From the IMG/VR virus record IMGVR_UViG_3300036829_000111, positions 1 through 52,556 of that record: a DNA stretch of 52,556 nucleotides; one strand, written 5' to 3'. Source of the stretch: a virus. The first letter of the stretch is position 1. Each line of letters starts with the position of its first letter. This document shows positions 30,653 through 52,556 of this stretch, in pieces. The notes under the pieces were generated by a model. That model had not been told where the DNA came from, made no database searches, and worked only from the letters and a program-made list of their open reading frames with translations. The position numbers and the translations under genes were made by a program.

Positions 30653-30949
30653 ATGCAGAACGCTGGGAGCGCCCAGAGCACCAGGGGAGTACAGGTGCCG
30701 ACGGGGCGTGAGCGAAGGTTCATGCGCGTTCGAGAAGTCGCGCGCGCTCTTGACGTGAGCGAGATGACCATCCGGCGCGCTTACGCGGCAGGAGTCATCC
30801 CCGGCATCACGTTCGGGACCTCCTGCCGCATCCTGCGCGCATTCGTCGTGAGCCTGATCGCGGCTGTCGAAGCAGGCCAGCAGATCGAGGTCGAAGAGTT
30901 CGGCCGCCAGTGGACGGCCCAGAACGCGACGCCTGAGGCGGTGGCGTAG
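30653..30949 (+). CDS. Excisionase/MerR-like HTH protein, first gene of the rightward operon
   Basis: 98 residues from the leaderless ATG at 30653. RRFMRVREVARALDVSEMTI and RRAYAAGVIPGITFG form the winged HTH of Xis/AlpA-type proteins, and SCRILRAFVVSLIAAVEAG completes it. Xis-like proteins direct excision or act as transcription factors. In actinomycete AICEs such a gene lies near the transfer genes (knowledge). A shorter start at 30722 (MRVREV) is possible. Confidence 0.8.
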   Translation: MQNAGSAQSTRGVQVPTGRERRFMRVREVARALDVSEMTIRRAYAAGVIPGITFGTSCRILRAFVVSLIAAVEAGQQIEVEEFGRQWTAQNATPEAVA

Positions 30950-30990
30950 ATGGCCGCCGCCTTTTCTGCAACCCCCCCTGGAGACGCTTC

Positions 30991-31077
30991 ATGCGCGCTG
31001 ACCAGCCAGACCCGGAGGACTGCGTCCTCTGCAACGTCCGGGGTGCCGGCTGCCCGTTCCACGGGTCCGGCCGCTGA
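30991..31077 (+). CDS. Tiny Cys-rich peptide, 28 aa
   Basis: The sequence begins MRADQPDPEDCVLCNVRGAG and ends CPFHGSGR. GGAG lies 7 nt before the ATG. CxxC plus C-x2-H could bind zinc. The good ribosome site and its place in the operon favour a real gene, though size makes this tentative. Confidence 0.5.
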   Translation: MRADQPDPEDCVLCNVRGAGCPFHGSGR

Positions 31078-31091
31078 CCCGGAAAACGATC

Positions 31092-31122
31092 GAGGGTCCT
31101 GCGACGCAACCGCAGGACCCTC
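31092..31122 (+). terminator. 12-bp hairpin, possible attenuator
   Basis: GAGGGTCCTGCG (31092-31103), loop ACGCAAC, CGCAGGACCCTC (31111-31122). No T run follows, so it may be a partial or factor-dependent terminator, or an mRNA processing element between the first and later operon genes. Confidence 0.5.
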
Positions 31123-31157
31123 GCTGCTCTCAACCCCGCTAGGAATGGAGAACGTTC

Positions 31158-31732: not shown

Positions 31733-31914
31733 TCACCCTCATCGCCACCAAGCAGGACATGTCCCGCTGGACCCGCGCCCACGAGAACACGCCCGGCATC
31801 AACTGGTCCGTCCAGGCCGGGGACGGCGGAACGCTGATCATCGTCGAGCACGAGGACCGCTCCTTCCCGACCGGGACCAGCGTCCCGGCCGCGCCTACGG
31901 CGGTGGCGGCGTGA
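31729..31914 (+). CDS. Hypothetical protein, 61 aa
   Basis: MITLIATKQDMSRWTRAHEN then a beta-like stretch GGTLIIVEHEDRSFPTG. ATGA overlap before and GTGA overlap after. Unknown function. Confidence 0.65.
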   Translation: MITLIATKQDMSRWTRAHENTPGINWSVQAGDGGTLIIVEHEDRSFPTGTSVPAAPTAVAA

Positions 31915-32363
31915 AGAACCGCACCGCCTCCCAGTTCAGCCTCGGCGCCCTCGGCCCGCTGCTGGACATGGAGACGCCGAAGAACTGGCAGGACCTCGCC
32001 GCGTGCCAGTACACCGATCCCGAGGTCTTCTTCCCGGTGAAGGGCGGCACCTCGGCACCGGCCAAGCGCATCTGCGCTGCCTGCGCGGTCCGCATGGAGT
32101 GCCTGGAATTCGCCCTGGACAACGATGAGCGCTTCGGGGTCTTTGGCGGCACGTCCGAGGCGCAGCGCCGCCGCATCCTCCGCGACCGGGCCCGCTCGGC
32201 GCAACCCGGACCCCAGCGCATGTGCCGCAGGAACCTGCACGTCATGGACGCGGCGAACACGAACGAAAGCGGGAAGTGCCGCGCATGCGGCGGCCAGTCC
32301 GCAGCCCAGGTCCCGGACAACGGCACCCCGTGCGACCGCACGGAAGCGGCGCAAGTCGCGTAA
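31911..32363 (+). CDS. WhiB-family iron-sulfur regulator
   Basis: 150 residues from GTG at 31911. WQDLAACQYTDPEVFFP, then KRICAACAVRMECLEFALDN gives the four Cys ligands of the WhiB 4Fe-4S cluster, and GVFGGTSEAQRRRILRD is the G-[VIF]-x-G-G turn plus basic DNA-binding tail. WhiB proteins control transcription with the sigma factor. The C-terminal 45 residues add MCRRNLHVMD and CRACGGQ, a second Cys pair that is unusual and may be a zinc finger. Phage and plasmid WhiB proteins are known in actinobacteria. Confidence 0.92.
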   Translation: MKNRTASQFSLGALGPLLDMETPKNWQDLAACQYTDPEVFFPVKGGTSAPAKRICAACAVRMECLEFALDNDERFGVFGGTSEAQRRRILRDRARSAQPGPQRMCRRNLHVMDAANTNESGKCRACGGQSAAQVPDNGTPCDRTEAAQVA

Positions 32364-32377
32364 CGGAAGGAACCCTT

Positions 32378-32575
32378 GTGAAAACCTTTATCGGCGCCGC
32401 CTTCATAGTGGTCGACGTCATCGTGGTGAAGGCGCTGATGATCGCCAGCCACGCCCCGCACGCCGGCAACAAGGTGGCGGAAGGCGCCATTATCCTCTTC
32501 GTCGCCAACGTGGTGGCCTTCTGGCTGCTCGGCAAGCTGAAGAAGTCCGCAACTCCGTTCGGGGGGTCGCGGTGA
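32378..32575 (+). CDS. Small membrane protein, two spans
   Basis: 65 residues from GTG at 32378 (GGAAGGA Shine-Dalgarno). FIGAAFIVVDVIVVKALMIA and GAIILFVANVVAFWLLGKL are two membrane helices, followed by a basic tail. It opens a series of small membrane proteins leading to the transfer genes. Function unknown. Confidence 0.7.
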   Translation: MKTFIGAAFIVVDVIVVKALMIASHAPHAGNKVAEGAIILFVANVVAFWLLGKLKKSATPFGGSR

Positions 32576-32793
32576 AGGCGACCGCCCCGCCGGAGCGCGC
32601 GAACTGGTCGCCCGTGGCCGCCGCGTTCGCGTCGATGCTGGCCTTCATCCTGCTGGTCTCCCTGGCGATCGGCTTCGGCGTCGCCCGGAACTGGACTGGC
32701 GTCGCCGCCGTGATCGGCGCGTTCGTGCTGCTGGTCAGTGTCGGCCTGGTCGTCGAGCGCATCTGCCAGCGCCGCGTAAGGGGGCAGAGGTGA
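32572..32793 (+). CDS. Small membrane protein, two spans
   Basis: 73 residues from GTG at 32572 (GTGA overlap). AAFASMLAFILLVSLAIGFG and GVAAVIGAFVLLVSVGLVVE are the spans; the C-terminus is Arg-rich (CQRRVRGQR). Likely part of the cell-envelope portion of the transfer module. Confidence 0.7.
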   Translation: MKATAPPERANWSPVAAAFASMLAFILLVSLAIGFGVARNWTGVAAVIGAFVLLVSVGLVVERICQRRVRGQR

Positions 32794-32921
32794 CACCGGA
32801 ACTCGTGCTCGCCGCCGCGCACACCGCGGCGAAGCACCAGACGAACACCCCCGGGTGGATCCTCCTCATCGTTCTCATCGCCATCGGCGTGTGGGCGCTT
32901 GGCCGCTGGCTGAGGAGCTGA
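32790..32921 (+). CDS. Small membrane protein, one span
   Basis: 43 residues from GTG at 32790 (GTGA overlap). WILLIVLIAIGVWALGRWL is one C-terminal membrane helix after a polar N-terminus. Small Spd-like peptides of this kind are common in actinomycete conjugative elements. Confidence 0.65.
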   Translation: MTPELVLAAAHTAAKHQTNTPGWILLIVLIAIGVWALGRWLRS

Positions 32922-32927: not shown

Positions 32928-33521
32928 ATGCGCAGGTACCGCTATCGCCACCCCTACCGCCTGCACCGCGGCGGTGTTAACCCGCGCACGATTGCGGTCG
33001 CGGCGGGTGCTGTAGCGGTACTGGCCTGGATGCAAGCGCACCCGGGCACCGGGCACGCGGGCGAGTCGGCGGCCGGGATCGGCGGCAGGCACGCCACAAA
33101 GCCGCATCCGGCCTCCCCGTCGCGGGCAGCCCGGATCGCGGTCGCCTACGCCGAATCCAAGGTCGGCCGCGTCCCGTACGTGTGGGGCGGTGTCACCAAC
33201 GGGGGGATGGACTGCTCAGGCCTGACGTGGAACGCGTGGGGCGACGCCGGGGTGCACATCGCCCGCACCTCCCAGGACCAGTGGGCGACCGAGCACCGGG
33301 TCTCCAGCCCCGCAGCCGGGGACCTGGTGTTCTTCCCCGGCGTCGACGGAACTCCCTCGGCACCGGGGCACGTGGGGATCGTCACCGACCCGGCGAGGCA
33401 CCGGATGGTCGATGCCTACGGGGCTGGCACGCTCGTCCGTTACGACACGTACGGCTCGGACGCTTCGGCACCGGGGCTGTCCGCGGTCGTCGGCTTCACC
33501 GACCCGGCAGGAGGCGCGTGA
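32928..33521 (+). CDS. NlpC/P60 cell-wall peptidase
   Basis: 197 residues. The N-terminus is basic (RRYRYRHPYRLHRGG) followed by a hydrophobic span TIAVAAGAVAVLAWMQA, a signal or anchor. Catalytic Cys is in GGMDCSGLTWNAWGDAG (about 93-109) and the His in PGHVGIV, giving the NlpC/P60 hydrolase. It would open peptidoglycan for DNA transfer or act as a phage lysin-like enzyme. Its location among membrane proteins before the FtsK-like gene favours conjugation. Confidence 0.9.
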   Translation: MRRYRYRHPYRLHRGGVNPRTIAVAAGAVAVLAWMQAHPGTGHAGESAAGIGGRHATKPHPASPSRAARIAVAYAESKVGRVPYVWGGVTNGGMDCSGLTWNAWGDAGVHIARTSQDQWATEHRVSSPAAGDLVFFPGVDGTPSAPGHVGIVTDPARHRMVDAYGAGTLVRYDTYGSDASAPGLSAVVGFTDPAGGA

Positions 33522-33808: not shown

Positions 33809-34332
33809 GGCGCTACACGACCCATTCCCGCTACGGGCGGCACGGCTCGAACAGGGACATGATCGTCGGTGTGGCGATCGGCCTCGTTGCGCTGGCCGGC
33901 GGCACGAAAACCGCGGTGACGGTGACTCATCACCACGCCTCTGCCCCTCACGTCGCCGCGGTCACCAGTGGCAGCGAGCGCGCGTTCATCCGCGCCACCC
34001 TCGCCGACCTCGGCGCCCCGGCCACGTCCGCGAACATCTACTCGCTCGCCGCGTGGTTCCCGCACGAGTACCCGAGCTGGCCGCCGTGGGCCGCCAACAA
34101 CCCCATGTCATCCACTTTGCGGATGCCCGGCTCGACCACCTACAACTCCATCGGCGTCCAGAACTATCCGACAGCCTCCGAGGGCGCGCATGCGACTGCG
34201 CTGACCCTCGCGAACGGCTACTACCCCCTGATCGTCGCCGCCCTGCGCTCCGGCCGGGGCCTGTGCGGCAACCCCAACCTCGCCGCCGAGTTCCTCGTGT
34301 GGTCCGGCGGCGGCTACAGAGGAGCGTGCTAA
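33805..34332 (+). CDS. Exported protein, putative wall-acting or lysozyme-like
   Basis: 175 residues from GTG at 33805 (GTGA overlap). After a basic start, MIVGVAIGLVALAGGTKTAV is a signal anchor. The extracellular part reads FIRATLADLGAPATSANIYS, LAAWFPHEYPSWPPWAAN, STTYNSIGVQNYPTASEGAH and ALTLANGYYPLIVAAL, a pattern like transglycosylase-type domains of actinobacterial transfer loci. No certain catalytic residue can be named. Partner of the NlpC/P60 protein by position. Confidence 0.6.
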   Translation: MRRYTTHSRYGRHGSNRDMIVGVAIGLVALAGGTKTAVTVTHHHASAPHVAAVTSGSERAFIRATLADLGAPATSANIYSLAAWFPHEYPSWPPWAANNPMSSTLRMPGSTTYNSIGVQNYPTASEGAHATALTLANGYYPLIVAALRSGRGLCGNPNLAAEFLVWSGGGYRGAC

Positions 34333-34335: not shown

Positions 34336-35241
34336 ATGTCAACCACTTCGCAGGACAGGATCCCAGAGCTGCGGGTGCGCCCCGGGGTCAGCAAGGCGGT
34401 CGTCTGGTCCGGGGTCGCGCTCGGCACGACCCTGGCGATCCTGGCCATGATGCACGGGGCGCGGCTGCACCTCGGCGGAATGCCCGCCCTCCCCGGCGCC
34501 GTCTTCGGCGTGCTTGTCGAGTGGGCGCTGTTCGTGGCCACGGCGATCCTGGCGGCCGAGATGACCCGCCGCCATCACAAGACGGCGGCCCGGTACGCGG
34601 CACAGCAGGGGAGCCGCGGCGCGTCCGCCGGAGGCCAGGCCCTCCGCAGGCACGCGCTCATGTTCCTCGACAAGTCAGCCGACTGGGCCGCCCCGCGGTG
34701 GCATGCCCGGACAGGCAGCACCCGCACGCCGGATGAGATCACGCAGCCGATTCCCTCGGCAGCACCCGCAAGCCCCTCCGCAGACAGCGCGGAGGTCAAT
34801 CCAACCGAAGGAGAAAACATGACGACACCGACACGCGGCCTTGTCAGCCGCATCAGCCCTGACCGGCGGGCGCAGCGCACCGCATCCCGCAGCGGCGCCG
34901 TCATCCCGGCGGAGTGGGGCCATGTGGTCACGCAGACCGCCGACTTCGACCCCGAAGACGACGGGCACCTGCTCGACTGGATGGGCGGGCAGGTCGCCGG
35001 CGTAGCCGCCTACGGGGAGGCGCTCGTCGAGGTGTACGAGGGCCTCACCCGCGACAAGGGGGCCGACCCCAAGGCCGCCGCCGCGATCCACGATGTCGCC
35101 GACGCCATCGCCCACGCCGCGGAGATGATGGCCGCCGCCAAGGCGAAGTTCTCCGAGCACTACGAACTGCCTCGCGAGTACGCCGCCAACGGCGGGCTCA
35201 TGACCCACGACGGCCGGTGGGTCACCGGCGAAGGCGACTAG
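34336..35241 (+). CDS. Membrane protein fused in frame to a soluble THDGR-type protein
   Basis: 301 residues. AVVWSGVALGTTLAILAMM (about 22-40) and FGVLVEWALFVATAILAAEM (about 57-76) are two spans, with a charged linker to about 160. The second half, helical and acidic, ends GGLMTHDGRWVTGEGD. A strong GAAGGAG and ATG occur in frame at 34807-34821, so this second half can be made separately. The C-terminal motif is shared with the 38473 protein. Likely a transfer-module component. Confidence 0.75.
   Translation: MSTTSQDRIPELRVRPGVSKAVVWSGVALGTTLAILAMMHGARLHLGGMPALPGAVFGVLVEWALFVATAILAAEMTRRHHKTAARYAAQQGSRGASAGGQALRRHALMFLDKSADWAAPRWHARTGSTRTPDEITQPIPSAAPASPSADSAEVNPTEGENMTTPTRGLVSRISPDRRAQRTASRSGAVIPAEWGHVVTQTADFDPEDDGHLLDWMGGQVAGVAAYGEALVEVYEGLTRDKGADPKAAAAIHDVADAIAHAAEMMAAAKAKFSEHYELPREYAANGGLMTHDGRWVTGEGD
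34819..35241 (+). CDS. Nested product of the 34336 gene (internal start)
   Basis: The 140-residue C-terminal half could be made from ATG at 34819, which has GAAGGAG 5 nt upstream. It starts MTTPTRGLVSRISPDRRAQR, contains AAAIHDVADAIAHAAEMMAA and ends THDGRWVTGEGD. Homologous ending to the first domain of the 38473 protein, which there begins at its own ATG, supports an independent protein. Confidence 0.55.
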   Translation: MTTPTRGLVSRISPDRRAQRTASRSGAVIPAEWGHVVTQTADFDPEDDGHLLDWMGGQVAGVAAYGEALVEVYEGLTRDKGADPKAAAAIHDVADAIAHAAEMMAAAKAKFSEHYELPREYAANGGLMTHDGRWVTGEGD

Positions 35242-35315: not shown

Positions 35316-37616
35316 GTGGCCATACAGGCGCCGGAGCGATGGGCACCGGAGCGGCCGTGCCAGATCCCCGGGCACCCCCACGACGACGTCGGAGATGACG
35401 AGCGTCTGCTGCTCACCATGTCGCCGTGGCAGAGGTTCCGGTCATGGATCATGGCCGCGCCCGCTGAGCGGCTGCCCCTGCCCGCGTTCGTGACTGCGTG
35501 GCCCGCCACGGAGATCATGCACGCAGCCGGCGTCCCCGGCACGGTCCCCGCCTGCGCGACATGCGCCGCTACCGCCGCAGCGTGGCTGACCTGGTTCCGG
35601 CACCGGAAGGCATCCCCGCACCCGCGGCTCGCCCCCCTCGAGGCCGCAGGCGTCGCCGCCGCTGCCGGCGGATGGATCACCGCCGCCGACATGTGGGGCC
35701 CGCTCGGCTGGCCCGCCCACCTGCTCACCGGGATCTACCTTGCCGGGTCCGCCGGCGGGTACGCGTGGCTGCGCCGCCATGAGGCTGTCCTCGCCGCCCG
35801 CAAGCGCCGTGAAGACGCCGCTGCCGAGATCGCCGACAGGCGCCACTGGCATGGGGTGCTCCACCGGGCCGGCCTTGGCGGCTGGCACGTGCAGTGGCGC
35901 CGCGACACCAACCTCGGCGAGGAGCGGCTGATCACCACCAGCCCGGAGAACGCGTCCGCCAAGCAGATCGCCGCGAACAGCAGCAGGATCGCGGAGAAGC
36001 TCGAGCACATCCTCGGCCTGCCCTACAACCGGATCGACATCAGCACGACCGGCCAGCCGGGCCAGCTGATCATCGGTATCCGCACCGTGGACGTTTCGTC
36101 GCGGAGCGCCGCCTACCACCCGATGACGATGCCGTGGCCCGAGAGCAGCCCGTCCCCGTTCGCGGACTGGTTCCCGGAGACCGCCAGTATCCGCGACCCG
36201 GCCGTGTGGGGATTCTGCCCCGAGGACAGTTCCCCCCTGGCCGCCCAGCTGCTGAGCGACATCGGCGGCCGGGCCATCGGCGTGTTCGGCATGACCGGCT
36301 CCGGCAAGTCGTCCCTGCTGAACAACCTCCGCGAGTTCGTCACCCGATGCCCCGACGCCCGCATGGTGCAGCTGAACGGCGCGCACATGGGCGACGAGTT
36401 GTCCTGGGAGCCGCTGTCCGCGCTGACGCGATGCGGCCCGGTCGCCACCAACGAGAACGTCCGCAACGACATCGCCGAGATCCTGGAAGCGCTGCGCCTG
36501 CTCGTCACGAACCGGTCAGAGACCCTCGAGAAGACCGGGCATTCCACGTTCCAGCCCACGGAGAAAGATCCGGCCGTCGTCATCTTCATCGACGAGGTCG
36601 ACGAGATCGTCAAGTACGTCCCCGGGGCCGGAGATGCGCTGGATTTCCTCGCCGGCAAGCAGCGGAAATCGGCGGTTGCCCTGGTTCTCGCGACTCAGCG
36701 TGCCGTGATCAAGGCGATCGGCGGCGGTGCCGTGCGGGCGAACCTGAGCGAGGCCCTCGTCGGCAAGGTCGCTCGCGGCTCTGAATCCCGCCACGCGACC
36801 GGGGCGGAGAGCGAGCTGCCGGACATCCGCGAGTACAGCGGCGGGGCGCCCGGCTATTTCCAGACGTTTGACCCGCACTCAAACACCGTCACCGGACGGG
36901 GCCGGGCGTTCCTCCTCGGCGTGCCACCCGAGGAACTGGCCTACGTCAAGCGCCTCGTCGCGGCCCGCAGGCACCTGCGGGACTGGGGCATCCCCGACAT
37001 GCCGGAGATGGACCTGGACGGCGGCGAGGCGGTTGCTGAAGCCGCCGCGGGCGAGACGACGCGGGAAGTCGCCGGCCTGCGCGAACGGCTCGCCGCCGCC
37101 CGCGACAACGCCGCGGCACAGCCCGCGCCTGCAGCGGCCGCCAAGACGCAGCCGCCCGCGCAGGCTCCGACCTTCATCCCGGGGGTTCCGCAGCCTGTCG
37201 TACAGATGATGCTTCGGATGCTCGCCGCCCCGGACGGGGTGACCGCGGCGGCCTTCGGCGATGCCATCGGCAAGTCGAAGACCACGGCGTACGGGTACCT
37301 GAAATCAGCGGAAGACCGCGGAGTCGCCGTTCGCGACGGCAACTCGGTAGCGAGTCGTTACCGGCTCGCGACCCGTCGGCAGCCGGAATCCGTCCGGGAT
37401 CAGTCCGAGACGATGGAACCGGCCCAGACCCGGCCCGAGGGATACGTGACGCTGGAAGACCTCGCCGAAGAGGTACGCGACGGCCGGGTGGATGTCGATG
37501 ACGAGGCCCGCGCCGTATTGATGCAGGCGCTTCAACTCCGCGACCAGGCACCCGCGCGCCCGCATCTGACGGTCGTGCCGGACCCGGACCCGGAACCGGA
37601 AAGTGACGCACTGTGA
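35316..37616 (+). CDS. FtsK/TraB-type DNA translocase of the transfer module
   Basis: 766 residues from GTG at 35316 (AAGGAAG upstream). Hydrophobic segments lie near 55-150 (AAGVAAAAGGWITAADMW, LLTGIYLAGSAGGYAWL). Walker A GVFGMTGSGKSSLLNNL is at about 322-338, Walker B AVVIFIDEVDEIV near 418-430, followed by ALVLATQRAVIKAI. The C-terminus (about 625-690) is a winged helix: MMLRMLAAPDGVTAAAFGDA, IGKSKTTAYGYLKSAEDRG. Actinomycete TraB proteins share this plan and move double-stranded DNA between cells after binding a clt site (established knowledge). Assignment to conjugation rests on this and on context. Confidence 0.85.
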   Translation: MAIQAPERWAPERPCQIPGHPHDDVGDDERLLLTMSPWQRFRSWIMAAPAERLPLPAFVTAWPATEIMHAAGVPGTVPACATCAATAAAWLTWFRHRKASPHPRLAPLEAAGVAAAAGGWITAADMWGPLGWPAHLLTGIYLAGSAGGYAWLRRHEAVLAARKRREDAAAEIADRRHWHGVLHRAGLGGWHVQWRRDTNLGEERLITTSPENASAKQIAANSSRIAEKLEHILGLPYNRIDISTTGQPGQLIIGIRTVDVSSRSAAYHPMTMPWPESSPSPFADWFPETASIRDPAVWGFCPEDSSPLAAQLLSDIGGRAIGVFGMTGSGKSSLLNNLREFVTRCPDARMVQLNGAHMGDELSWEPLSALTRCGPVATNENVRNDIAEILEALRLLVTNRSETLEKTGHSTFQPTEKDPAVVIFIDEVDEIVKYVPGAGDALDFLAGKQRKSAVALVLATQRAVIKAIGGGAVRANLSEALVGKVARGSESRHATGAESELPDIREYSGGAPGYFQTFDPHSNTVTGRGRAFLLGVPPEELAYVKRLVAARRHLRDWGIPDMPEMDLDGGEAVAEAAAGETTREVAGLRERLAAARDNAAAQPAPAAAAKTQPPAQAPTFIPGVPQPVVQMMLRMLAAPDGVTAAAFGDAIGKSKTTAYGYLKSAEDRGVAVRDGNSVASRYRLATRRQPESVRDQSETMEPAQTRPEGYVTLEDLAEEVRDGRVDVDDEARAVLMQALQLRDQAPARPHLTVVPDPDPEPESDAL

Positions 37617-42249: not shown

Positions 42250-42274
42250 ATTTCGCGTATTTAGGGCGGTGGCC

Positions 42275-43614: not shown

Positions 43615-43618
43615 ACCC

Positions 43619-43906: not shown

Positions 43907-44173
43907 TCTCTCCGGTATCCCGGCTGCCGCCATCACGGAGACGCCACACCGCAGCGCGAGCCGGAAACCAAGCGGCAGTCACAGAACGTGACCAACCACT
44001 CAAATCGGTCGGGCCGCGACGGCGAACGATAGGGGGGGAGGGTACCGACGGCGGCCGGATGGCCTCCCTGACCCGCCGCACGCTTCTCGCAAAATGTACG
44101 GTTCACGCGATTCCGGAGGGTGGCCATCCGTCACCCTCCGCGCCATACCCCCTGACCGCATAGGGAGGTGACC
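43907..44173. other. Non-coding gap before terminase; possible cos/pac region
   Basis: 267 nt with no convincing gene on either strand. It contains a G run at about 44033-44043 (GGGGGGGAGGG), and GGAGGGTG (44115-44122), 9 nt, CACCCTCC (44132-44139), an 8-bp hairpin. Its place between the HNH and small-terminase genes is where cos or pac sites lie in many phages. A GGGAGG Shine-Dalgarno ends it. Confidence 0.45.
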
Positions 44174-44575: not shown

Positions 44576-46155
44576 TGCCGTGGCGCGGCCCGTCTGAGCC
44601 AGGGGAGTTCCCGACTCTCGGCTACGAGATCGGCGAGTGGATCGAGGCGCACGTCGTCATCCCGGACGGCTACCGCCGCGGGGAGCAGTACCTGCTGACC
44701 GATGAGATGTGGCGGTTCCTGCTGCGCTTCTACCGGATTGACGAGGCTGAACAGAGCCTTCGCTACTACGGCGGCCAGCTGCGCCGCTCGCAGAAGTGGG
44801 GCAAGGACCCGTTCGGCGCGGCGATCATCCTGGCCGAGGCCCTCGGCCCGGCGCGGTTCGACGGCTGGAATGCCAGCGGCGAGCCGGTCGGCAAGCCGTA
44901 CCCGACGCCGTACATCCCGTGCCTGGGGACGTCCGAGGAGCAGACGGACAACACGTATCTTCCGCTGCTGGACATGATCCGGCTGGGGCCGCTGGCCGAC
45001 CTGCCGGGCATGGACGCGGGGGAGACCCGGGTGAAGCTGCCGAACAGCGGCTCGATCGAACCGGTGACCGCCTCGGCGCGGGCGCGGCTCGGGCAGCGGA
45101 TGACGTTCGCGACCTTGACCGAATCGCACCTGTGGACGCTGCAGGGCGGATTCCGGCGCCTGGCCGGCGCAGTGAAGCGGAACATCGCGGGCATGGACGG
45201 CCGGTGGCTTGAGCTCACCAACGCGTGGGATCCGACCGAGGGCAGCGAGGCCCAGGTGACATCCGAGTCGGCCAACGACCGGGTGTACATCGACACGGTC
45301 GAGCCGCAGCGCGTGGAAGACCTTCAGGATGACGAGGCGCTGTACCGGGAGCTGCTGCGACAGTACGGGGACTCGGCGGCCGAGCGCGGCGGCTGGGTGA
45401 ACATCCGGGGCCGCATCATGCACGAGGTGCGCAGCGCCGCGCACCTTGAGGCGGACCGGCGCCGGTTCTTCCTGAACGAGATTGTCGTCGGCGAGTCGGT
45501 GTTCGTCGATCCCGTGCGCTGGGACCTGCAGGCACGCCCGGATGAGACTCTCGCGCCGGGCGAGCGTGTGGCGCTCGGGTTCGACGGATCGAAGTACCGG
45601 GACGCTACCGCGCTGGTGGCCTCGCGGAGGTCGGACGGGCGCCTGTTCGAGATCCGGATATGGGAGCGGCCGGAGGATGCCGGCCGGGACTGGCGCGTTC
45701 CCTCGGCTGATGTTGACCGGGTGGTGCGGGAGACGTTCGGCGCCTACGACGTTGCCGTGATGTTCGCGGACCCGTACCGCTGGCAGGACTACCTGGATGC
45801 CTGGGCGGTCGCGTTCGGCGCGGACCGGGTCGTGGAGTTCCCGACCAACCAGGAACAGCGGATGGACAAGGCGATCGAGCGGTTCACGACGGCGTTCGGG
45901 AACCTGGAGATCACGCACAGCGGCTCAGAGATGATGACGGGCCATTTCAAGAACGCCGTCGTGGTCAAGGGTGCCCGCAAGAAGCCGCGGCCCGGCGAGG
46001 AGCAGTCTCTCGCGACGCACTACCTGAAGATGGCCAAGCGCGGCGACGGAAAGCTCATCGACGCCGCTGTCGCCGGCGTCCTCGCGCATGAGGCACGGGC
46101 GTGGGCCGCTGAGCACGTCCCGGATGCCAGCGACCCGTTCGTCCTGTTCGGATAG
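44575..46155 (+). CDS. Terminase large subunit
   Basis: 526 residues. The ATPase part has LRRSQKWGKDPFGAAIILAE (deviant Walker A, about 69-88) and ATLTESHLW near 180 (Walker B/adenine region). The nuclease part has ALGFDGSKYRDATALV (about 338-353) and VMFADPYRWQDYLDAWA, and near the end IDAAVAGVLAHEARAW. This is the HK97-like large terminase plan. It pumps DNA into proheads and cuts it. Confidence 0.9.
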   Translation: MPWRGPSEPGEFPTLGYEIGEWIEAHVVIPDGYRRGEQYLLTDEMWRFLLRFYRIDEAEQSLRYYGGQLRRSQKWGKDPFGAAIILAEALGPARFDGWNASGEPVGKPYPTPYIPCLGTSEEQTDNTYLPLLDMIRLGPLADLPGMDAGETRVKLPNSGSIEPVTASARARLGQRMTFATLTESHLWTLQGGFRRLAGAVKRNIAGMDGRWLELTNAWDPTEGSEAQVTSESANDRVYIDTVEPQRVEDLQDDEALYRELLRQYGDSAAERGGWVNIRGRIMHEVRSAAHLEADRRRFFLNEIVVGESVFVDPVRWDLQARPDETLAPGERVALGFDGSKYRDATALVASRRSDGRLFEIRIWERPEDAGRDWRVPSADVDRVVRETFGAYDVAVMFADPYRWQDYLDAWAVAFGADRVVEFPTNQEQRMDKAIERFTTAFGNLEITHSGSEMMTGHFKNAVVVKGARKKPRPGEEQSLATHYLKMAKRGDGKLIDAAVAGVLAHEARAWAAEHVPDASDPFVLFG

Positions 46156-46164: not shown

Positions 46165-46320
46165 ATGGCGCTGACTGAGGGCACTCCGGGTGACTGGCAG
46201 CCGGGGAGTTACCCGGCCGCTGTCCATCTGGTGTACAAGGGCGATGACCGGGCGCCGATCCCCGTCGTGCACTGGCCGGCCGGTCCTGTGAAGCTCCCCG
46301 TCCCCGGGGAGGCGCAGTGA
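46165..46320 (+). CDS. Small hypothetical protein, 51 aa
   Basis: MALTEGTPGDWQPGSYPAAV, then HLVYKGDDRAPIPVVHW, beta-rich. AGGAGG lies 4-5 nt upstream. GTGA overlap with the next gene. Unknown function. Confidence 0.65.
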   Translation: MALTEGTPGDWQPGSYPAAVHLVYKGDDRAPIPVVHWPAGPVKLPVPGEAQ

Positions 46321-46553
46321 CGGTTCTCGACACGGTCCCGGTCGACCGGATCACGGCGCGGGCCCGCGAGGTGCATTTCTGGCGGACCGTCCTCACGATC
46401 ATCGCCGGGCTGCTGTTCGGCCTCGGCTGGCTGGCGTACAAGACGGTCGCGGTGGCATGGCTGGCCGCGGCCTGGAGTGCGGTCGCTGTCCGGGAAGGCT
46501 GGCTAGAAGCTCGCAAGGGCCAGCTGAGGCGTGCCGCCGGGCACACCGGTTAA
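46317..46553 (+). CDS. Small membrane protein, 78 aa
   Basis: GTG at 46317. VHFWRTVLTIIAGLLFGLGW and VAVAWLAAAWSAVAVREGW make two spans, with a basic C-terminus. Small membrane proteins between terminase and portal are frequent in actinophages; function unknown. Confidence 0.68.
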   Translation: MTVLDTVPVDRITARAREVHFWRTVLTIIAGLLFGLGWLAYKTVAVAWLAAAWSAVAVREGWLEARKGQLRRAAGHTG

Positions 46554-46577
46554 CGGAACTGCGCGGCGGGAGGGCTG

Positions 46578-47993
46578 ATGGGTCTCGTTGACCGGGTGAA
46601 TTCTTCCCTCTCCGCATCTTCGCGCGGCACGCTGCGGTCACGGTCGGATTCGCCGCTGTCGATCGACGATTACGCGAACTTCTTCAACTTCGGCGGCCTC
46701 GCCTACCCGATCGTCCAGACGACGCTGGGTTCGGTCGACCGCGAGCGGGTGGCGCTGTCGGCGGTCGGCGCCTATAAGGCGTCGGGGCCGATCTTCGCGC
46801 TGATCCAGGCGCGGCTGCAGGTGTTCAGCCAGGTGGCGTTCCAGTTCACGAGGCTGACGGGGTCGATGCCGGGTGACCTGTTCGGCACGCAGGACCTGCA
46901 GATCCTGGAGACGCCGTGGGCGGGCGGTTCCACGGCACGGCTGCTGTCGGTGATGGAGGTCGACAACAGCCTCGCGGGCAACAGCTACATCGTCCGGGCA
47001 CGCCCGGGCACGCTGTCGCGGCTGCGGCCGGAGTTCGTGACGATCATCCTCGGCTCCGAGACGGACGCCGAGTCGCCGGCCGACGCGCCGGACTGCACGG
47101 TCGCGGCCTACCTGTACACGCCGCCGTCCGGCAAACAGACCATTTACTTCCCCGGGGAAGTCGCGCACTACGCGCCCGTCCCGGACCCGTATTACCACTT
47201 CCTCGGCCAGTCGTGGGTGACGCCGGTGATCCGGGAGCTGGAAGGCGACACGCTCGCCACCGAGCACAAGACGCGCTTCTACGCGAACGCCGCAACTCCG
47301 AACCTGGCGATCAAGTTCGACCCATCGCTCGACATCACGAAGGTGAAGGCCTTCAAGGAGCTGCTGGAGGAAGAGCACCGCGGCGCGTTCAACGCGTGGA
47401 AGACGATGTACCTCGGCGGCGGCGCCGACCCGGTGACGGTCGGCATGAACTTCCGCGACATGGAGTACGCGGCGATCCAGGGCAAGGCGGAGTCGCGGCT
47501 GGCCGCCGCGGCGGGGGTCCCGCCGTCGTGGGTGGGCTTCTCCGAGGGCCTGCAGGGCTCATCGCTGAACGCCGGGAACTTCAACTCGGCGCGCAGGCGC
47601 TTCTCCGACGGCACGGTCTGGCACCTGTGGCGGGCTGCCGCCTCGGCGCTGGAGTCCGTGGTGAACGTGCCGCCGGGCGCGAACCTGTGGCCGGACACGC
47701 GAGTCCCGTTCATGCGAGAGGACGCCGGCGACCAGGCGGCGATCCAGGCGCAGCAGGCGTCGACGATCGGGTCGCTGATCAAGGACGGGTTCGACCCGGA
47801 CTCGGCGGTGAAGGCCGTCATCAACAACGACTGGTCGGTGCTGGAGCACACGGGCATGGTCTCGGTCCAGCTGAATCCGCCCGGTTCCGATGCGGCCAGC
47901 GGCGGTGCGGCCGGCGGTGGCGGTGCCGCGAACGGGCTGCCGCCGAAATCAGGTCTTGCCATGAAGGAAAGCGGCGACAGCGACCCGCTGTAG
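46578..47993 (+). CDS. Portal protein
   Basis: 471 residues. GPIFALIQARLQVFSQVAFQ, NSYIVRARPGTLSRLRPEFV, VAHYAPVPDPYYHFLGQSWV and SRLAAAAGVPPSWVGFSEGL are the sections of HK97/SPP1-type phage portals. The C-terminus has Gly/Ala-rich GGAAGGGGAANG. It forms the 12-fold ring at the DNA entry vertex. GGGAGG precedes the ATG. Confidence 0.92.
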   Translation: MGLVDRVNSSLSASSRGTLRSRSDSPLSIDDYANFFNFGGLAYPIVQTTLGSVDRERVALSAVGAYKASGPIFALIQARLQVFSQVAFQFTRLTGSMPGDLFGTQDLQILETPWAGGSTARLLSVMEVDNSLAGNSYIVRARPGTLSRLRPEFVTIILGSETDAESPADAPDCTVAAYLYTPPSGKQTIYFPGEVAHYAPVPDPYYHFLGQSWVTPVIRELEGDTLATEHKTRFYANAATPNLAIKFDPSLDITKVKAFKELLEEEHRGAFNAWKTMYLGGGADPVTVGMNFRDMEYAAIQGKAESRLAAAAGVPPSWVGFSEGLQGSSLNAGNFNSARRRFSDGTVWHLWRAAASALESVVNVPPGANLWPDTRVPFMREDAGDQAAIQAQQASTIGSLIKDGFDPDSAVKAVINNDWSVLEHTGMVSVQLNPPGSDAASGGAAGGGGAANGLPPKSGLAMKESGDSDPL

Positions 47994-48043
47994 CCGCCCC
48001 TGATCCCGATCCGTCCCCGCCCGTGCGCGCAGGGGCGGCTTTT
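47992..48043 (+). terminator. Intrinsic terminator after portal gene
   Basis: AGCCGCCCCTG (47992-48002), a 27-nt loop, CAGGGGCGGCT (48030-48040) then TTTCTG. It could reduce portal relative to downstream capsid transcription. Confidence 0.7.
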
Positions 48044-48078
48044 CTGTTGCCTAGCACCCTGGGAGGTCGCGGTGCCCG

Positions 48079-51000
48079 ATGAGCGATGAGGGCCGGGTGC
48101 GGCGCGCGCTGGCCGGGGACACGTCCCTGCTGGCGATGCGGGCATTCCCGCTGCGGGACATCGAGATCCTGTCGCGGGCCAAGGGCGGCGACGGCCGGAC
48201 GGTCACCGCGTACGCCGCCGTGTTCAACAAGCCGACGGAGATCGTCGACCAGGACGGGCACTACAACGAGCAGATCGCCCCGGTCGCGTTCAACAAGAGC
48301 CTCGCGGACCGGTCCCGGAAGATCGGCGTCTACTACAACCACGGCAAGACGCTGCACGGCACGCCGTCCGAGCGCGGTTCGGTGCCGCTCGGCAGCCCGC
48401 TGGAGCCGCCGCGGCCGGACGGAAACGGGCTGCTGACCGTCTCCCGGTACAACCGGACGCAGCTTGCCGACGACGTGCTCGAGGCGATCAAGAACGGTGA
48501 CATCACCGGCCAGAGCTTCACCGGCGTGTTCCTGCATTCCGACCCCGACAACGGCCCGTACTACGGCCGGAGCGGGCAGCTCACCACGGTGACGCGCCGG
48601 GAGATCGCCTTGGTCGAGTACGGCCCCACGCCTATCCCGGCCTACGAGGCCGCCGAGATCGTGGGGGTCCGCAACAGGGAGGGACGAATGTCCGGCGACC
48701 ACGATCACACTCACGACCGGGCGTCGGGCCCGGAACCGTACGAGCGGCATCCGGGCGAGGACGTGCAGTGCCCGGCGTGCGGCAAGTTCAACGACGACGA
48801 CGCGGTCTACTGCGACCAGTGCGGGAAGAAGATCCCGGACTCGGCGTTCCCGGCCGGCCCGCAGCCCTACCACCGGGACGCGGGCGAGACGGTGCAGTGC
48901 CCGAACTGCATGAAGTTCGACATGCCGGATGCCCGGTTCTGCGACCAGTGCGGGGAGCAGCTGCCGGACTCGGCGTATAACTCCGGCGGTGCCGCGGCGC
49001 CCGGGAACGCGGACCGGGCGGCGGCCCGCGCTCCCGGTGACGCCGGCGACGGCGAGGCGGCGGCCCCCGAGGATGAGCGCACCCGGGCGAACACGATGCT
49101 GTGCGAGCACTTCGGCTGGGAGCCGGGAGGCGCCGACGCGCTGGGCGACTCCGAGCGGAGCCTGCTGCTGGCCAGCATCAGCGAAGCCCACGGCGGCGGC
49201 GAGCACGAGCGCGCCAGCGTGGACGACAGCGCCTGGGACGGCAACGCCGCGATGGGCACGTGCAGCAGCGCCTCGGACTACCGGGCGATCTGCGCCGGGG
49301 AGAAGACCATCGGCGACCCGTCGGAGCGGCAGCACTGGGCACTCCCGCACCACAAGCAGCCCGGTGCGGCGCCGAACGCGGGCGGGGTCCGCAACAGCCT
49401 GTCACGGCTGCCGCAGACCCAGGACCTGAAGAACAAGAGCGCCGCCGAGGCGCACCTGCGGGCCCACATGCGGGCCATCGCCCCGGACTCCGGAGATTCC
49501 GGGTCCTCGAATTCTTCCGGCAGGTCAGAGCCTGCCGGGCCAGCCGCCGTCAACGGCACTGGAGCCGGCACGGGAACACCGCTCCCGCCGCCAGCCGAGC
49601 CGCCCACGCACTCGGTAAACCGCAGCACATCCAACGCAAGCACAGGAGAAGGAACGATGACCGAACAGGCCATGACGGTCGAGGAGCGGGCGGCTCGCCA
49701 GGACGAGATCCGGGCGCGGCTCGCCGAGATCGACAGCCAGTACACCGGCGCGGCGCTGCCCGAGAAGGCCCGCTCCGAGTGGAAGCAGCTGCAGGACGAG
49801 CTCGTGATCAACGAGGACGCGATCCGCGACGCCACCGAGCGCGCTACCTACCTGCGCACGATCGCCGCGCAGAACCCGGAGGCGACCGTGCAGGGTGCCG
49901 ACCCGGGCTCCGGCTACGCGGACGCGCAGGAGGCGCAGCGGTCCGGTGCCGTGCCGCAGCAGTCCCGCAGCGGCACCCCGCGGGCAATGTACGGGGCGCC
50001 GTACCTCTCCCGCCGGCCGCACAACATCTACGATGTCGCCGGCATGCGGCGCGAGGCCCGCAGCATCGAGGACCTGCCCGGCCTGTACCGGGACCGGGCG
50101 AAGTGGTCGCTGGAGGAGGCGACGTTCCCCGGCGACGGAAGGCCCCGCGAGGTCGTACAGGAGCGCGTCCAGCACCTGCTCGACACGCGGGATGACGTGA
50201 ACGGCACCCTCGCCCGCAACATGCTGTTGACTGGCAGCCCCGAGTACCGGCGGGCGTTCGGCAAGCTGCTGGCGCGGATGAACGTCGGCGCACTGGACCA
50301 GGCCGAGCAGCGGGCCCTCGCGATGGGCACCCCGGCATCGTGGCAGCCCGGCTCCTTCCCGGTGCCCTACCAGCTCGACCCCACGGTCACGCTGACCAGC
50401 AACGGCGCGATCAACGCGCTGCGGCAGATCGCCCGGGTCGAGCAGATCGTCGGCAAGGAATGGCTGGGTGTCACCAGCTCGGGGATCACGGTCACCCGCG
50501 CCAACGAGGTCACCGCGGCCACCGACGCCACCGCGTCGCCGTTCGCCATGAACCAGCCCGGCGTCGCCCCGACCCGCGTCCAGGCATTCGTGCCGTTCTC
50601 GGTCGAGGTCGAGCAGGACTGGAACGGCCTCATGGCCGAAATCGCCATGATGCTCGCCGACGCCAAGGACGTGGAAGAGGCGGCGACATTCCTCACCGGC
50701 GCGGGCACCGGGAACATCCCGCAGGGCGTCCTCACCGGCGTCACCGCCGGGGGCACCGCCCAGCAGATCACGACCGCAGGCACCGCGGCCGTGTCGCCCG
50801 GCGACGTGTACGCCCTGGAATCCGCCATGGCCCCCAGGTTCCGCGCCCAGGCGTCGCTCCTGGCCAGCAAGGGCGGATACAACGCGATCCGCGCCACGTT
50901 CCAGGCCTTCGCCTCGGCCGCCGGGGACGTGTGGGTCCGCCCCTCCGCCGGCACCGCGCCGGAACTCCTCGGCTACCCGGCCTACGAGAACAGCAACATG

Positions 51001-51213
51001 GCGTCCACGACAGCGACCGGAAACCAGGTCCTGCTAATGGGCGACTTCAAGCAGTTCATTGTGGTCGACCGGATTGGCATGTCCGTCGAGTTGATTCCCC
51101 ATGTGTTCGCTTCTGGCGGTCTCCCGCAGGGCCAGCGCGGGATTTACGCACTTTGGCGCAACTCCAGCCAGGTGCTCGTCCCCAACGCGTTCCGTTTCCT
51201 GCAGGCGCGATAA
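48079..51213 (+). CDS. Prohead protease / zinc ribbon / major capsid fusion protein
   Basis: 1044 residues. (1) Prohead protease, about 20-195: TVTAYAAVFNKP, IGVYYNHG (His), ITGQSFTGVF (Ser). (2) Two zinc ribbons: VQCPACGKF...YCDQCGKKI (about 228-253) and VQCPNCMKF...FCDQCGEQL (about 271-295). (3) A conserved domain, DDSAWDGNAAMGTC, DYRAICAG, WALPHHKQPGAAPNAGGVRN (about 347-465), seen with phage proteases. (4) Linker. (5) HK97 major capsid from residue 527 with a delta-type coiled N-terminus. Single-chain protease-capsid fusions are known, but a zinc-ribbon pair within is unusual. Confidence 0.88.
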   Translation: MSDEGRVRRALAGDTSLLAMRAFPLRDIEILSRAKGGDGRTVTAYAAVFNKPTEIVDQDGHYNEQIAPVAFNKSLADRSRKIGVYYNHGKTLHGTPSERGSVPLGSPLEPPRPDGNGLLTVSRYNRTQLADDVLEAIKNGDITGQSFTGVFLHSDPDNGPYYGRSGQLTTVTRREIALVEYGPTPIPAYEAAEIVGVRNREGRMSGDHDHTHDRASGPEPYERHPGEDVQCPACGKFNDDDAVYCDQCGKKIPDSAFPAGPQPYHRDAGETVQCPNCMKFDMPDARFCDQCGEQLPDSAYNSGGAAAPGNADRAAARAPGDAGDGEAAAPEDERTRANTMLCEHFGWEPGGADALGDSERSLLLASISEAHGGGEHERASVDDSAWDGNAAMGTCSSASDYRAICAGEKTIGDPSERQHWALPHHKQPGAAPNAGGVRNSLSRLPQTQDLKNKSAAEAHLRAHMRAIAPDSGDSGSSNSSGRSEPAGPAAVNGTGAGTGTPLPPPAEPPTHSVNRSTSNASTGEGTMTEQAMTVEERAARQDEIRARLAEIDSQYTGAALPEKARSEWKQLQDELVINEDAIRDATERATYLRTIAAQNPEATVQGADPGSGYADAQEAQRSGAVPQQSRSGTPRAMYGAPYLSRRPHNIYDVAGMRREARSIEDLPGLYRDRAKWSLEEATFPGDGRPREVVQERVQHLLDTRDDVNGTLARNMLLTGSPEYRRAFGKLLARMNVGALDQAEQRALAMGTPASWQPGSFPVPYQLDPTVTLTSNGAINALRQIARVEQIVGKEWLGVTSSGITVTRANEVTAATDATASPFAMNQPGVAPTRVQAFVPFSVEVEQDWNGLMAEIAMMLADAKDVEEAATFLTGAGTGNIPQGVLTGVTAGGTAQQITTAGTAAVSPGDVYALESAMAPRFRAQASLLASKGGYNAIRATFQAFASAAGDVWVRPSAGTAPELLGYPAYENSNMASTTATGNQVLLMGDFKQFIVVDRIGMSVELIPHVFASGGLPQGQRGIYALWRNSSQVLVPNAFRFLQAR
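49657..51213 (+). CDS. Major capsid protein from internal start
   Basis: ATG at 49657 with AGGAGAAGGA upstream gives the 518-residue MTEQAMTVEERAARQDEIRA... protein: an N-terminal coiled delta domain (about 1-100), then the capsid fold with GSFPVPYQLDPTVTLTS, IVGKEWLGVTSSGITVTRAN and YAYENSN-type loops to the end. This start would give capsid in excess of the fusion, as head assembly needs. Confidence 0.65.
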   Translation: MTEQAMTVEERAARQDEIRARLAEIDSQYTGAALPEKARSEWKQLQDELVINEDAIRDATERATYLRTIAAQNPEATVQGADPGSGYADAQEAQRSGAVPQQSRSGTPRAMYGAPYLSRRPHNIYDVAGMRREARSIEDLPGLYRDRAKWSLEEATFPGDGRPREVVQERVQHLLDTRDDVNGTLARNMLLTGSPEYRRAFGKLLARMNVGALDQAEQRALAMGTPASWQPGSFPVPYQLDPTVTLTSNGAINALRQIARVEQIVGKEWLGVTSSGITVTRANEVTAATDATASPFAMNQPGVAPTRVQAFVPFSVEVEQDWNGLMAEIAMMLADAKDVEEAATFLTGAGTGNIPQGVLTGVTAGGTAQQITTAGTAAVSPGDVYALESAMAPRFRAQASLLASKGGYNAIRATFQAFASAAGDVWVRPSAGTAPELLGYPAYENSNMASTTATGNQVLLMGDFKQFIVVDRIGMSVELIPHVFASGGLPQGQRGIYALWRNSSQVLVPNAFRFLQAR

Positions 51214-51284
51214 CCATCACGGCCCGGCCGGAAGCTGTCCGCAGCCCGGCCGGGCCCGCTACTCACTGGGAGAGTGCCCGAGCA

Positions 51285-52436
51285 ATGCGCGTGCTTTTTC
51301 ATTCCCCGGGCACCAACCCGACCGGCTACGGGCAGCAGACCGCCCTGTTCGTCCCGCTGATCGCCTCCCTCGGCCACGAGGTGGCGATCTCCGCGTTCCA
51401 CGCCGTCCGCGGCGCGGCAACCGAGTGGAACGGGCACCGGGTCTACCCGGCCGGGCACGACCCGTACGGCTCGGACGTGCTGCGCGAGCACGCCCGGCAT
51501 TTCGGCGCCGACCTCGTCATCACGCTCATGGACGTGTGGGCGCTGAAACCGGACGCGGTGGCCGGCTTGCCGGTGGCTCACTGGATGCCGGTGGACTGCG
51601 ATGACGGCGGCGGTCTACAGGGCCGCGGCCTGTCGCTGCGAGACCACGTGCACCTGCGTGCCGGCGGAGGCGTGCCGGTCGCCATGTCCCGGTTCGGGGA
51701 AGCGCAGCTGCGCAAGTCGGGGCACGACCCGCTGTACGTGCCGCACGGCATCGACACGAACGTGTGGAAGCCGCCGGAGGACCGCAAGGCGCTCCGGGAG
51801 GCGATGGGCACCGCTGACTGTTTCGTGGTCGGCATCAACGCCGCGAACATCGACAAGACCCGGAAGGCGTGGCCGGAGCAGCTCGCCGCGTTCGCCCGGC
51901 TGCACCGCAGGCACAGTGACACGCGGCTGTTCGCGCACACGTTCCGGAAGACCGAGCCGGGGCTGAACCTGGCGGGGATCGCCCGGGACCTGGGTATCGC
52001 CGACGCCATCATGTGGCCGGACGAGTACATGCTGAAGTCCGGGCTGATCACGCCGGAGATGCTGGCCGCGACCTGCGGCACCTGGGACCTGTATTCCGGG
52101 TGCGCGATGGCTGAGGGGTTCGGGCTGCCGGTCCTGGAGGCGGAGGCGTGCGGCGTGCCGTCCGTGGTGACGGACGGGTCGGCGATGGCCGAGGTCGGAG
52201 CCGGGTGGAAGGTGCCGGGGGAGCCGGCCTGGTCCGAGCTCCACGCGGCGTGGTGGCGGAAGCCGTCGGTCGACGCCATCGCCAAGGTGTACGAGAAGGC
52301 CTACCAGGGCGGCCCGTCCTATGAGGCGAAGAAGGCGAAGGCGCGCGAGCATGCGCTGGCCTACGACGTCCAGCGGGTCCTGAAGGACCACTGGGAGCCG
52401 GCTTTGAAGACGCTTGAGGAGCGGCTGTGCGGCTGA
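51285..52436 (+). CDS. Glycosyltransferase, GT4-like
   Basis: 383 residues. MRVLFHSPGTNPTGYGQQTA, then LGHEVAISAFHAVRG is a GT-B N-domain. MSRFGEAQLRKSGHDPLYVP, HGIDTNVW, VVGINAANIDKTRKAWPEQL and CAMAEGFGLPVLEAEACGVP (E-x7-E at about 287-295) are GT4 landmarks. It transfers a sugar from a nucleotide donor. Placed right after capsid, it could modify capsid, wall polymer or DNA (inference). GGGAG lies about 10 nt upstream. Confidence 0.88.
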   Translation: MRVLFHSPGTNPTGYGQQTALFVPLIASLGHEVAISAFHAVRGAATEWNGHRVYPAGHDPYGSDVLREHARHFGADLVITLMDVWALKPDAVAGLPVAHWMPVDCDDGGGLQGRGLSLRDHVHLRAGGGVPVAMSRFGEAQLRKSGHDPLYVPHGIDTNVWKPPEDRKALREAMGTADCFVVGINAANIDKTRKAWPEQLAAFARLHRRHSDTRLFAHTFRKTEPGLNLAGIARDLGIADAIMWPDEYMLKSGLITPEMLAATCGTWDLYSGCAMAEGFGLPVLEAEACGVPSVVTDGSAMAEVGAGWKVPGEPAWSELHAAWWRKPSVDAIAKVYEKAYQGGPSYEAKKAKAREHALAYDVQRVLKDHWEPALKTLEERLCG

Positions 52437-52556
52437 ACCTGGGCTGCGGCAGCGTTCCCGAACCCGGCTACGTGAACGTGGACGTGTGGGATCAGCCCGG
52501 CGTGGACGTTGCCCATGACCTGGACGTCTTCCCGTGGCCGTTCAAGGACGGCGAGG
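52427..52556 (+). CDS. SAM-dependent methyltransferase, 5' part only
   Basis: From GTG at 52427 (10-nt overlap with the glycosyltransferase gene; GAGGAG upstream). VRLNLGCGSVPEPGYVNVDV carries the LNLGCG SAM loop and the D of the acidic loop, then AHDLDVFPWPFKDGE. It runs off the window. Its position suggests it modifies the same target as the glycosyltransferase. Confidence 0.85.
   Translation, partial: MRLNLGCGSVPEPGYVNVDVWDQPGVDVAHDLDVFPWPFKDGE

Follow-up and report, generated by a model that had tools for sequence, protein, structure and literature searches.

A dual life style, with spread by virions and by mycelial DNA transfer, has already been described for Streptomyces plasmid-phages, and PhiNon1 of Nonomuraea gerenzanensis is presented as a plasmid-phage found both circular and integrated (PMC5431353). 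In plasmid transfer, TraB is a hexamer assembling on 8-bp repeats and SpdB2 is its oligomeric, DNA-binding membrane partner. Here we analyze the virus contig IMGVR_UViG_3300036829_000111 (52,556 bp, ~70% G+C, 91 genes from a simple codon-based caller; the whole stretch is called the window), in which a transfer module of this kind precedes the terminase, portal, and capsid genes of a tailed phage. We consider it on balance likely that the window is about two-thirds of an ~80-kb, probably temperate actinobacterial cos siphophage, equipped with a module of the type found in plasmids and actinomycete integrative and conjugative elements (AICEs) that would pump double-stranded phage DNA across mycelial walls or septa. 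How a phage colonizes a connected mycelium divided by cross-walls is not obvious. Should phages maintain a plasmid-type pump next to their packaging genes, they could extend lysogeny through the hyphae with no need for lysis.

The kind of element is already known, since cultured plasmid-phages of this architecture are Streptomyces ZL12 and Nonomuraea PhiNon1. Like the window, PhiNon1 (NZ_LT559120.1) combines terminase, portal, and protease genes with a DUF2637 gene and an ATPase gene in one 59-kb element. Its module lies on the strand opposite the terminase, unlike that of the window, and neither GIY-YIG nor NlpC/P60 is annotated beside it, an annotation in which the hypothetical proteins were left unscanned. 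The PhiNon1 ATPase is 32-34% identical to the ATPases of viral contigs G290 and G002 (34% to G002) and represents a different subfamily from the window ATPase, with which it gives no BLAST match. Streptomyces pZL12/phiZL12 (GQ919031) is a 90-kb circular phage genome whose FtsK-type protein pZL12.71c is matched by the same ATPase profile as the window protein. It differs from the window in having ParA/ParB, and it was not found by tblastn with the window ATPase. Its DNA ends are reportedly largely random rather than cos.

AICEs resemble the window in their FtsK-type Tra protein, at the level of profile homology, and in their integrase, for which the window has a recombinase fragment (PMC3218068), and a DUF2637 gene neighbors the ATPase gene in some of the small integrative elements examined here, as in the window. 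The window differs from AICEs in carrying capsid and terminase genes, and RepSA, RepAM, and Prim-Pol are absent from the 30 window open reading frames (ORFs) scanned with Pfam, where the likely replication genes encode DnaB, a helicase, and an IstB-like protein. On these two grounds, classification as an AICE was rejected. Related ATPases are also present in Streptomyces phages NootNoot, Gilgamesh, and Hiyaa and Thermobifida phage P1312, which belong to other phage lineages. The stretches of these genomes that were inspected have neither a wall hydrolase nor WhiB in their annotation, and Hiyaa gene 98 resembles DUF2637 weakly, with a score under the cut-off. A literature search, with most subscription papers and all preprints outside its scope, returned no account of such modules in phages as a class. 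What is apparently new is the repeated module-terminase order, a nuclease with the DNA-binding domain of the transfer proteins, and the confinement of matches to mycelial hosts. The plasmid-phage category would thereby be widened beyond a few Streptomyces and Nonomuraea elements.

Transfer-type and packaging genes in one phage genome

Gene calls and family scans (30 window ORFs with Pfam and 10 each with PHROGs and NCBIfam) confirmed what an earlier note on this DNA had described, a rightward string of transfer genes followed by packaging and capsid genes. This right arm (30.6-52.6 kb) is encoded on the plus strand. At the center of its transfer module lie the genes for an FtsK/TraB-type DNA pump ATPase with a motor and a C-terminal winged helix (35316-37616), a GIY-YIG nuclease that also ends in a winged helix (37757-38476; PF10544, E 2e-4), and a DUF2637-family membrane protein, SpdB2-like by analogy (38473-40416; by profile comparison). 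The last two had been read as a single fusion and are separate genes with a 4-bp overlap. They are preceded by a WhiB-family regulator (31911-32363; PF02467, E 2e-22), with homologs in contigs G001, G002, G290, and L232; three small membrane proteins of 65, 73, and 43 amino acids, recognized by hydropathy and matched, among the contigs compared, in G001 only (32378-32921); an NlpC/P60 wall hydrolase (32928-33521; PF00877, E 1e-15); a membrane-anchored protein of 157 amino acids with no family match in Pfam or NCBIfam, 72% conserved in G001, whose AlphaFold model is all-helical and of low confidence (33859-34332; pLDDT 54); and a protein with two transmembrane segments (34336-35241) that has a GGxMTHDGRWVTGEGD-like stretch in common with the DUF2637-like protein.

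The packaging genes begin with the terminase small subunit TerS (44174-44575; PF25673, E 1e-5, just below the curated cut-off), whose best PHROG (E 2e-18) carries the label minor tail protein, and the large subunit TerL (44575-46155; phrog_19179, E 1e-56). They continue with the portal (46578-47993; PF04860, E 1e-22) and a single 1044-amino-acid ORF that unites a prohead protease, a double zinc ribbon, and an HK97 capsid protein (48079-51213; PF04586, E 7e-14; PF12773; PF05065, E 2e-30). Terminase, portal, protease, and capsid genes of an HK97-fold tailed phage are therefore all present in the window. A megablast search of window positions 28-52.6 kb against phages gave no match.

Contig G001 (83,597 bp) is collinear with the window over window positions 384-43609 and 46318-51049. 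An identical 118-bp sequence stands at both of its ends, within a single serine integrase gene, so that G001 is circular or circularly permuted and complete, with a length of 83,479 bp. In addition to the module, it encodes TerL, portal, head-tail adaptor, major tail, tail chaperone, tape measure, Dit, minor tail, and fiber proteins and a full serine integrase. Phage genes and a plasmid-type transfer gene thus stand on one molecule, as judged from the collinearity and circularity of G001, and the earlier idea that the two modules form one element is borne out by their joint presence in a complete genome; the tail genes asked after were found in G001 and in G290. G001 is the sole viral-contig relative for both the window ATPase and the window DUF2637 protein and the sole ATPase match among 31 contigs searched. 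The protease-zinc ribbon-capsid ORF has a homologous 1095-amino-acid ORF in G001.

A cos site at the junction

Relatives of TerL were found in 122 viral stretches, of which 80 were kept for analysis of contig ends. Ends cluster upstream of the terminase: 28 of these 80 contigs end 430-550 bp upstream of TerL, compared with a maximum of 4 in any 120-bp bin downstream. Moreover, the motif TCGC(A/G)(A/G)NN(T/C)GTA lies within a few bases of the start of 18 of these 80 contigs, and in 16 of the 18 the start precedes it by exactly six bases; the 18 comprise 16 of the 28 contigs above plus L073 and L081, in which TerL lies further in, and two of them share their first 200 bases. The other end could be read in five contigs of 45-49 kb. 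Their last bases, which lie about 35 nt past a GGGGGG-rich block, are GAC in four of them and GGA in one.

The window presents these elements in the following order: a GGGGGG-rich block, CTGAC, CCGCCGCA, CGCTTC, and the motif at 44,087, which occurs once in the window. When the trimmed ends of relatives are set against spanning sequences, CCGCCGCA (44073-44080, no strand assigned) emerges as the probable cohesive overhang. Left ends six bases before the motif give an overhang of 8 nt in the window; L003 likewise has 8 nt, the spanning contigs L076 and L052 have 10 nt, and L011 is without the GAC. We infer that the junction between module and terminase is the packaging terminus, a cos site, with the ends read from the contig ends of relatives. 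A cos site at this position would place the two modules at opposite ends of the linear virion DNA, with the transfer genes at the right and the terminase at the left, so that they adjoin only in the circle or concatemer.

Recurrence of the module beside terminase genes

Scans with ATPases of the G002 type recovered G290 (105 kb), G289/L232 (17.6 kb), L242 (62 kb), and L244 (51 kb) besides G002. In G290, the order is WhiB, ATPase, DUF2637, GIY-YIG, MerR, TerL, and tail genes and a PHROG portal are present. L232 has the same order, with TerL assigned by eye and followed by a homolog of the G290 portal; its DUF2637 call derives from a 105-amino-acid match to the G290 protein (63% identity) and not from a hidden Markov model (HMM). 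L244 has the order ATPase, DUF2637, TerL, portal. The module of G002, a contig whose genes read like those of G001, is inverted, and L242 has ATPase and DUF2637 genes, with no terminase seen in the stretch examined. Altogether, the module lies upstream of the terminase in five of the seven module-bearing contigs, the window and G001 included, and NlpC/P60 was seen within it in the window and G001 only. BLAST with the window portal gave no match in G289 or G290, although G290 has a PHROG portal. Of 16 other TerL relatives with whole contigs, several of which may be fragments, 14 are without this ATPase type, the exceptions being G002, which has it, and G004, whose protein is Zot-like; thus, the ATPase appears to be optional in this phage group. 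G004 was rejected as a module carrier, since its protein, found at E 6e-8 with the HMM of 14 genomic ATPases described below, matches Zot better than FtsK.

Gene content and order in these contigs show that the module belongs to the phage genome and recurs beside the terminase in other phages, so the union is a repeated arrangement in divergent phages and not a one-off fusion. One could suspect that a prophage happens to lie beside the remnant of an AICE or plasmid, or that the assembly is chimeric, because the terminases of the window and G001 differ, a difference that points to past recombination near the junction. Against this stand the same order in five contigs, the circular and collinear G001, and the cos site at the junction, and scans of 6 ORFs in the interval from 40.7 to 43.9 kb revealed no transposase (no dedicated search for att sites was made). 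The suspected chance join near 41-43 kb was therefore rejected, and we regard this explanation as very improbable.

A second alternative is that the wall hydrolase and the small membrane proteins form a lysis or entry cassette, with the ATPase aiding genome entry or excluding other phages or plasmids. The window NlpC/P60 protein matches tail and virion proteins in PHROGs, a gene weakly matching lysozyme (GH25, E 0.003) adjoins the inverted ATPase gene of G002, and a homolog of that lysozyme-like gene lies near the L242 module. However, the window NlpC/P60 protein has an N-terminal hydrophobic stretch, noted by eye and below the transmembrane threshold, and a lysis or entry cassette does not account for the pairing of DUF2637 with the ATPase, a pairing found again in small integrative elements. 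We judge this alternative improbable and continue with a module for DNA transfer.

The ATPase motor and its relatives in integrative elements

The window ATPase has the Walker A motif GMTGSGKS and matches an FtsK/SpoIIIE-like PHROG at E 1e-8. NCBIfam returned EccC/EssC only, at E 1e-3 to 5e-3, far below their cut-offs. In a search of PDB sequences, two ABC transporters (E 0.007) rank above FtsK 2ius (E 0.01), and a second such search gave only an antibody chain, at E 0.5. By similarity and reading, the C-terminal domain is a winged helix, and the protein thus has the TraB architecture of an FtsK-type motor followed by a winged helix.

Among 250 genomes of the Micromonospora tarensis family, 48 had a match at E<=1e-4 to a profile built from two ATPase sequences, with 4 candidates scored per genome; the best match reached 1.7e-16. 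The winged helix alone accounts for 8 of these 48 genomes and for 11 of the 58 places listed in the scan; such matches look, by reading, like IclR-type regulators and are uninformative on transfer. A few places lie in ORFs of ~1400 amino acids and may be other FtsK-like proteins. In a separate set of 9 genomes, 1 matched the profile, and a profile search of genome contigs with the ATPase alignment found no match in one such scan. We retrieved the contexts of 14 strong matches and one weak match and inspected 6. All 6 combine the ATPase with small neighboring genes and an integrase-like gene (4 integrases by eye), and Pfam scans identified PF01580 in all 4 ATPases examined, DUF2637 in all 3 membrane proteins, and integrase domains in both integrase-like proteins.

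In the reciprocal direction, an HMM of the 14 genomic ATPases matches the window protein at E 8.5e-26, G001 at 1.9e-27, ZL12 at 9.6e-17, and G002 at 7e-13, and among phages it matches Gilgamesh (2e-65), NootNoot (8e-40), P1312 (2e-29), and Hiyaa (3e-17). By this profile homology, the window motor belongs with the PF01580 ATPases that are encoded by small integrative elements of Micromonospora relatives. The AICE- or plasmid-type motor proposed in the earlier note thus holds at the level of profile homology, while the window protein itself does not match PF01580. DNA transfer by the module is what these sequence relationships suggest.

The motor being of FtsK/SpoIIIE type, the pump might serve segregation only, driving DNA of the phage or prophage past septa as they close and into the host's own spores or branches, much as SpoIIIE would, with no transfer to other individuals. 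Consistent with such a role, PhiNon1 has a gene for an SsgA-family sporulation/cell-division regulator (41200-41661) a short distance ahead of the DUF2637 gene, which is at 43341, and the authors of the P1312 report interpret their FtsK homolog as acting in DNA segregation (PMC4569894). However, a DUF2637 partner and an NlpC/P60 hydrolase would exceed the needs of segregation, and the closest motors found sit in mobile elements. Segregation as the sole function seems unlikely to us, and we keep to transfer of phage DNA between mycelial compartments.

The DUF2637-family partner

Neither Pfam nor a direct PF10935 search detected DUF2637 in the protein encoded at 38473-40416. Comparison of its membrane block with 28 DUF2637 sequences by hhalign gave a probability of 39 (E 3e-4), against a maximum of 9.1 in 100 column shuffles. 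With a phage sequence from G290 as a bridge, the probability rose to 91.8 (E 7e-7; the shuffle control refers to the version without the bridge). The L242 protein encoded 3' of the ATPase has a DUF2637 membrane part (E 8e-15), and its C-terminal 219 amino acids are 45% identical to those of the window protein (E 1e-42; 145 bits versus at most 26 bits in 200 shuffles); the membrane part is not in common. The DUF2637 call of the earlier note was thus right in substance, through the phage bridge and the C-terminal match to L242. SpdB2 itself contains DUF2637.

A DNA-binding domain in common with the nuclease, and candidate DNA sites

The C-terminal winged helix of the GIY-YIG nuclease is 42% identical to that of the window ATPase (E 2e-11). 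This is as close as the ATPase winged helix is to its own G001 counterpart (residues 623-690, 40%), while the motors of the two ATPases (residues 190-560) are 89% identical, so that the window and G001 form a natural experiment in which the motor is kept and the winged helix has changed. In G290, the winged helix of the nuclease is common to the DUF2637 protein (45%, E 3e-11) and not to the ATPase. Two modules thus have a nuclease equipped with the address domain of one of the transfer proteins, and the GIY-YIG and transfer proteins may read the same DNA sites. A GIY-YIG scan of viral contigs gave no match.

Sites of the clt type were sought as clusters of exact 8-mers, and the candidates are weak. 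Six copies of CCGCACCCTTT at 11740-11946 lie inside an initiator-like gene (11319-12218) that adjoins the DnaC-like and DnaB genes, and no comparable 8-mer cluster arose in 5 block shuffles; these iterons are a candidate lambda-like replication origin and less likely a transfer site. Four copies of CCCGGAGC at 40017-40233, out of seven plus-strand copies in the window, occupy the 3' part of the DUF2637 gene, within a Pro/Glu-rich coding stretch, and have no counterpart in G001.

Hosts

In bacterial genomes, TerL relatives are found in Micromonosporaceae (73-75%) and, more distantly, in other actinomycetes (49-53%). Against 50,697 phage records, one related ATPase matched 91, all of Streptomyces, and two further related ATPases each matched the same 8 Streptomyces or Thermobifida records; the TerL family matched 1,987 records of the same collection (1,295 Mycobacterium, 227 Gordonia, and 207 Streptomyces), and the G290 ATPase matched 76 plasmid records (Streptomyces 64, Kitasatospora 7, Micromonospora 3, Nonomuraea 1, which is PhiNon1, and Verrucosispora 1), all of these counts being inflated by duplicate records and shared ancestry and free of phylogenetic correction. 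The genera matched by the ATPases are mycelial, whereas Mycobacterium and Gordonia mostly are not. The host of the window is thus probably mycelial and Micromonosporaceae-like. A 203-kb Micromonospora plasmid (NZ_CP107937.1) carries ParA and an ATPase gene, which lies amid small hypothetical genes arranged similarly to the phage module.

A possible mode of spread through hyphae

In a lysogen or early in infection, the ATPase would form a hexameric pump that recognizes phage DNA through its winged helix, and the DUF2637 membrane protein would act together with this pump while NlpC/P60 opens the wall. Double-stranded phage DNA could then move across cross-walls or into neighboring hyphae without lysis, with virions carrying the phage over distance, and the GIY-YIG nuclease, through the same DNA-reading domain, may act at the same sites as the pump. 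More broadly and with greater hesitation, we suggest that a class of phages of mycelial actinomycetes might own a hyphal spreading machine beside their packaging genes, consisting of a TraB-type pump, a DUF2637 pore partner, a GIY-YIG nuclease with the same address, and in some a wall hydrolase. Such a machine would move unpackaged double-stranded DNA between compartments and give the phage two modes of transmission, its address domain changing fast as the determinant of specificity.

Several observations weigh against DNA transfer by a phage-borne module. For the motor, the window ATPase does not match PF01580 in Pfam at E 0.05, its AlphaFold model is unusable (mean pLDDT 41), and tblastn found no match for it among phages, nor for the G002 ATPase among phages; a tblastn search of plasmids with the window ATPase was likewise negative. 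For the partner, no DUF2637 gene was called beside the ATPase in three of the six inspected genomic contexts (L177, L178, and L180), and DUF2637-like proteins occur in cos siphophages that yielded no FtsK-type ATPase (G026, 19236-19997; G007, 18896-19672; G003, 15370-16113). No convincing clt emerged, and the only strong repeated 8-mer cluster is the one inside the initiator-like gene. For the genome as a whole, the window ends before the tail genes and holds only a fragment of a recombinase, and G001 has a different terminase and is without the cos motif.

Other genes of the window and of G001

Between the DUF2637 gene and the cos site, the plus strand encodes a DNA-binding protein (41246-41992; PHROG 1467/1568; homologs in G001 and L232), a MerR-like regulator (42269-42526; PF13411, E 2e-4), and, beside cos, an HNH-like ORF (43586-43906). 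The HNH call of the earlier note stands as a motif recognized by eye in DNA that is 80-83% conserved in G002 and G003, and it is not backed by a Pfam or NCBIfam match. The rightward arm starts with a helix-turn-helix and DUF5753 regulator (29686-30534, plus strand; PF19054, E 3e-40; PF13560, E 2e-13). Directly after the capsid gene, positions 51285-52556 hold a glycosyltransferase gene and the start of another small gene, 64-81% conserved in G002 and G028.

The left 23 kb are mostly on the minus strand and include genes for an N6/N4 methyltransferase, DnaB, a helicase, an IstB/DnaC-like ATPase, and DUF5131 (Pfam). At the contig end lies the cut N-terminal piece (an 85-amino-acid start) of a serine recombinase (2-256, minus strand; PF00239, E 2e-11), and the replication block (7725-12218, minus strand) comprises the DnaB, helicase, and IstB/DnaC-like genes together with the initiator-like gene, which has no family match and contains the iterons. 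An Rfam scan gave no match.

In G001, about 12 kb between module and portal hold QueD-, QueE-, and FolE-like genes (Pfam PTPS, Radical_SAM, and GTP_cyclohydroI) and a queuine-transferase-like gene. Together with a ParB-like gene they occupy positions 48272-52396 of that contig (also designated L085) and look like a 7-deazaguanine DNA-modification set, which was not seen among the window genes scanned. Within the minus-strand arm of the window, a lone plus-strand gene (4106-4333) appears by eye to encode a Phd-type antitoxin-like protein and is 82% conserved in G001.

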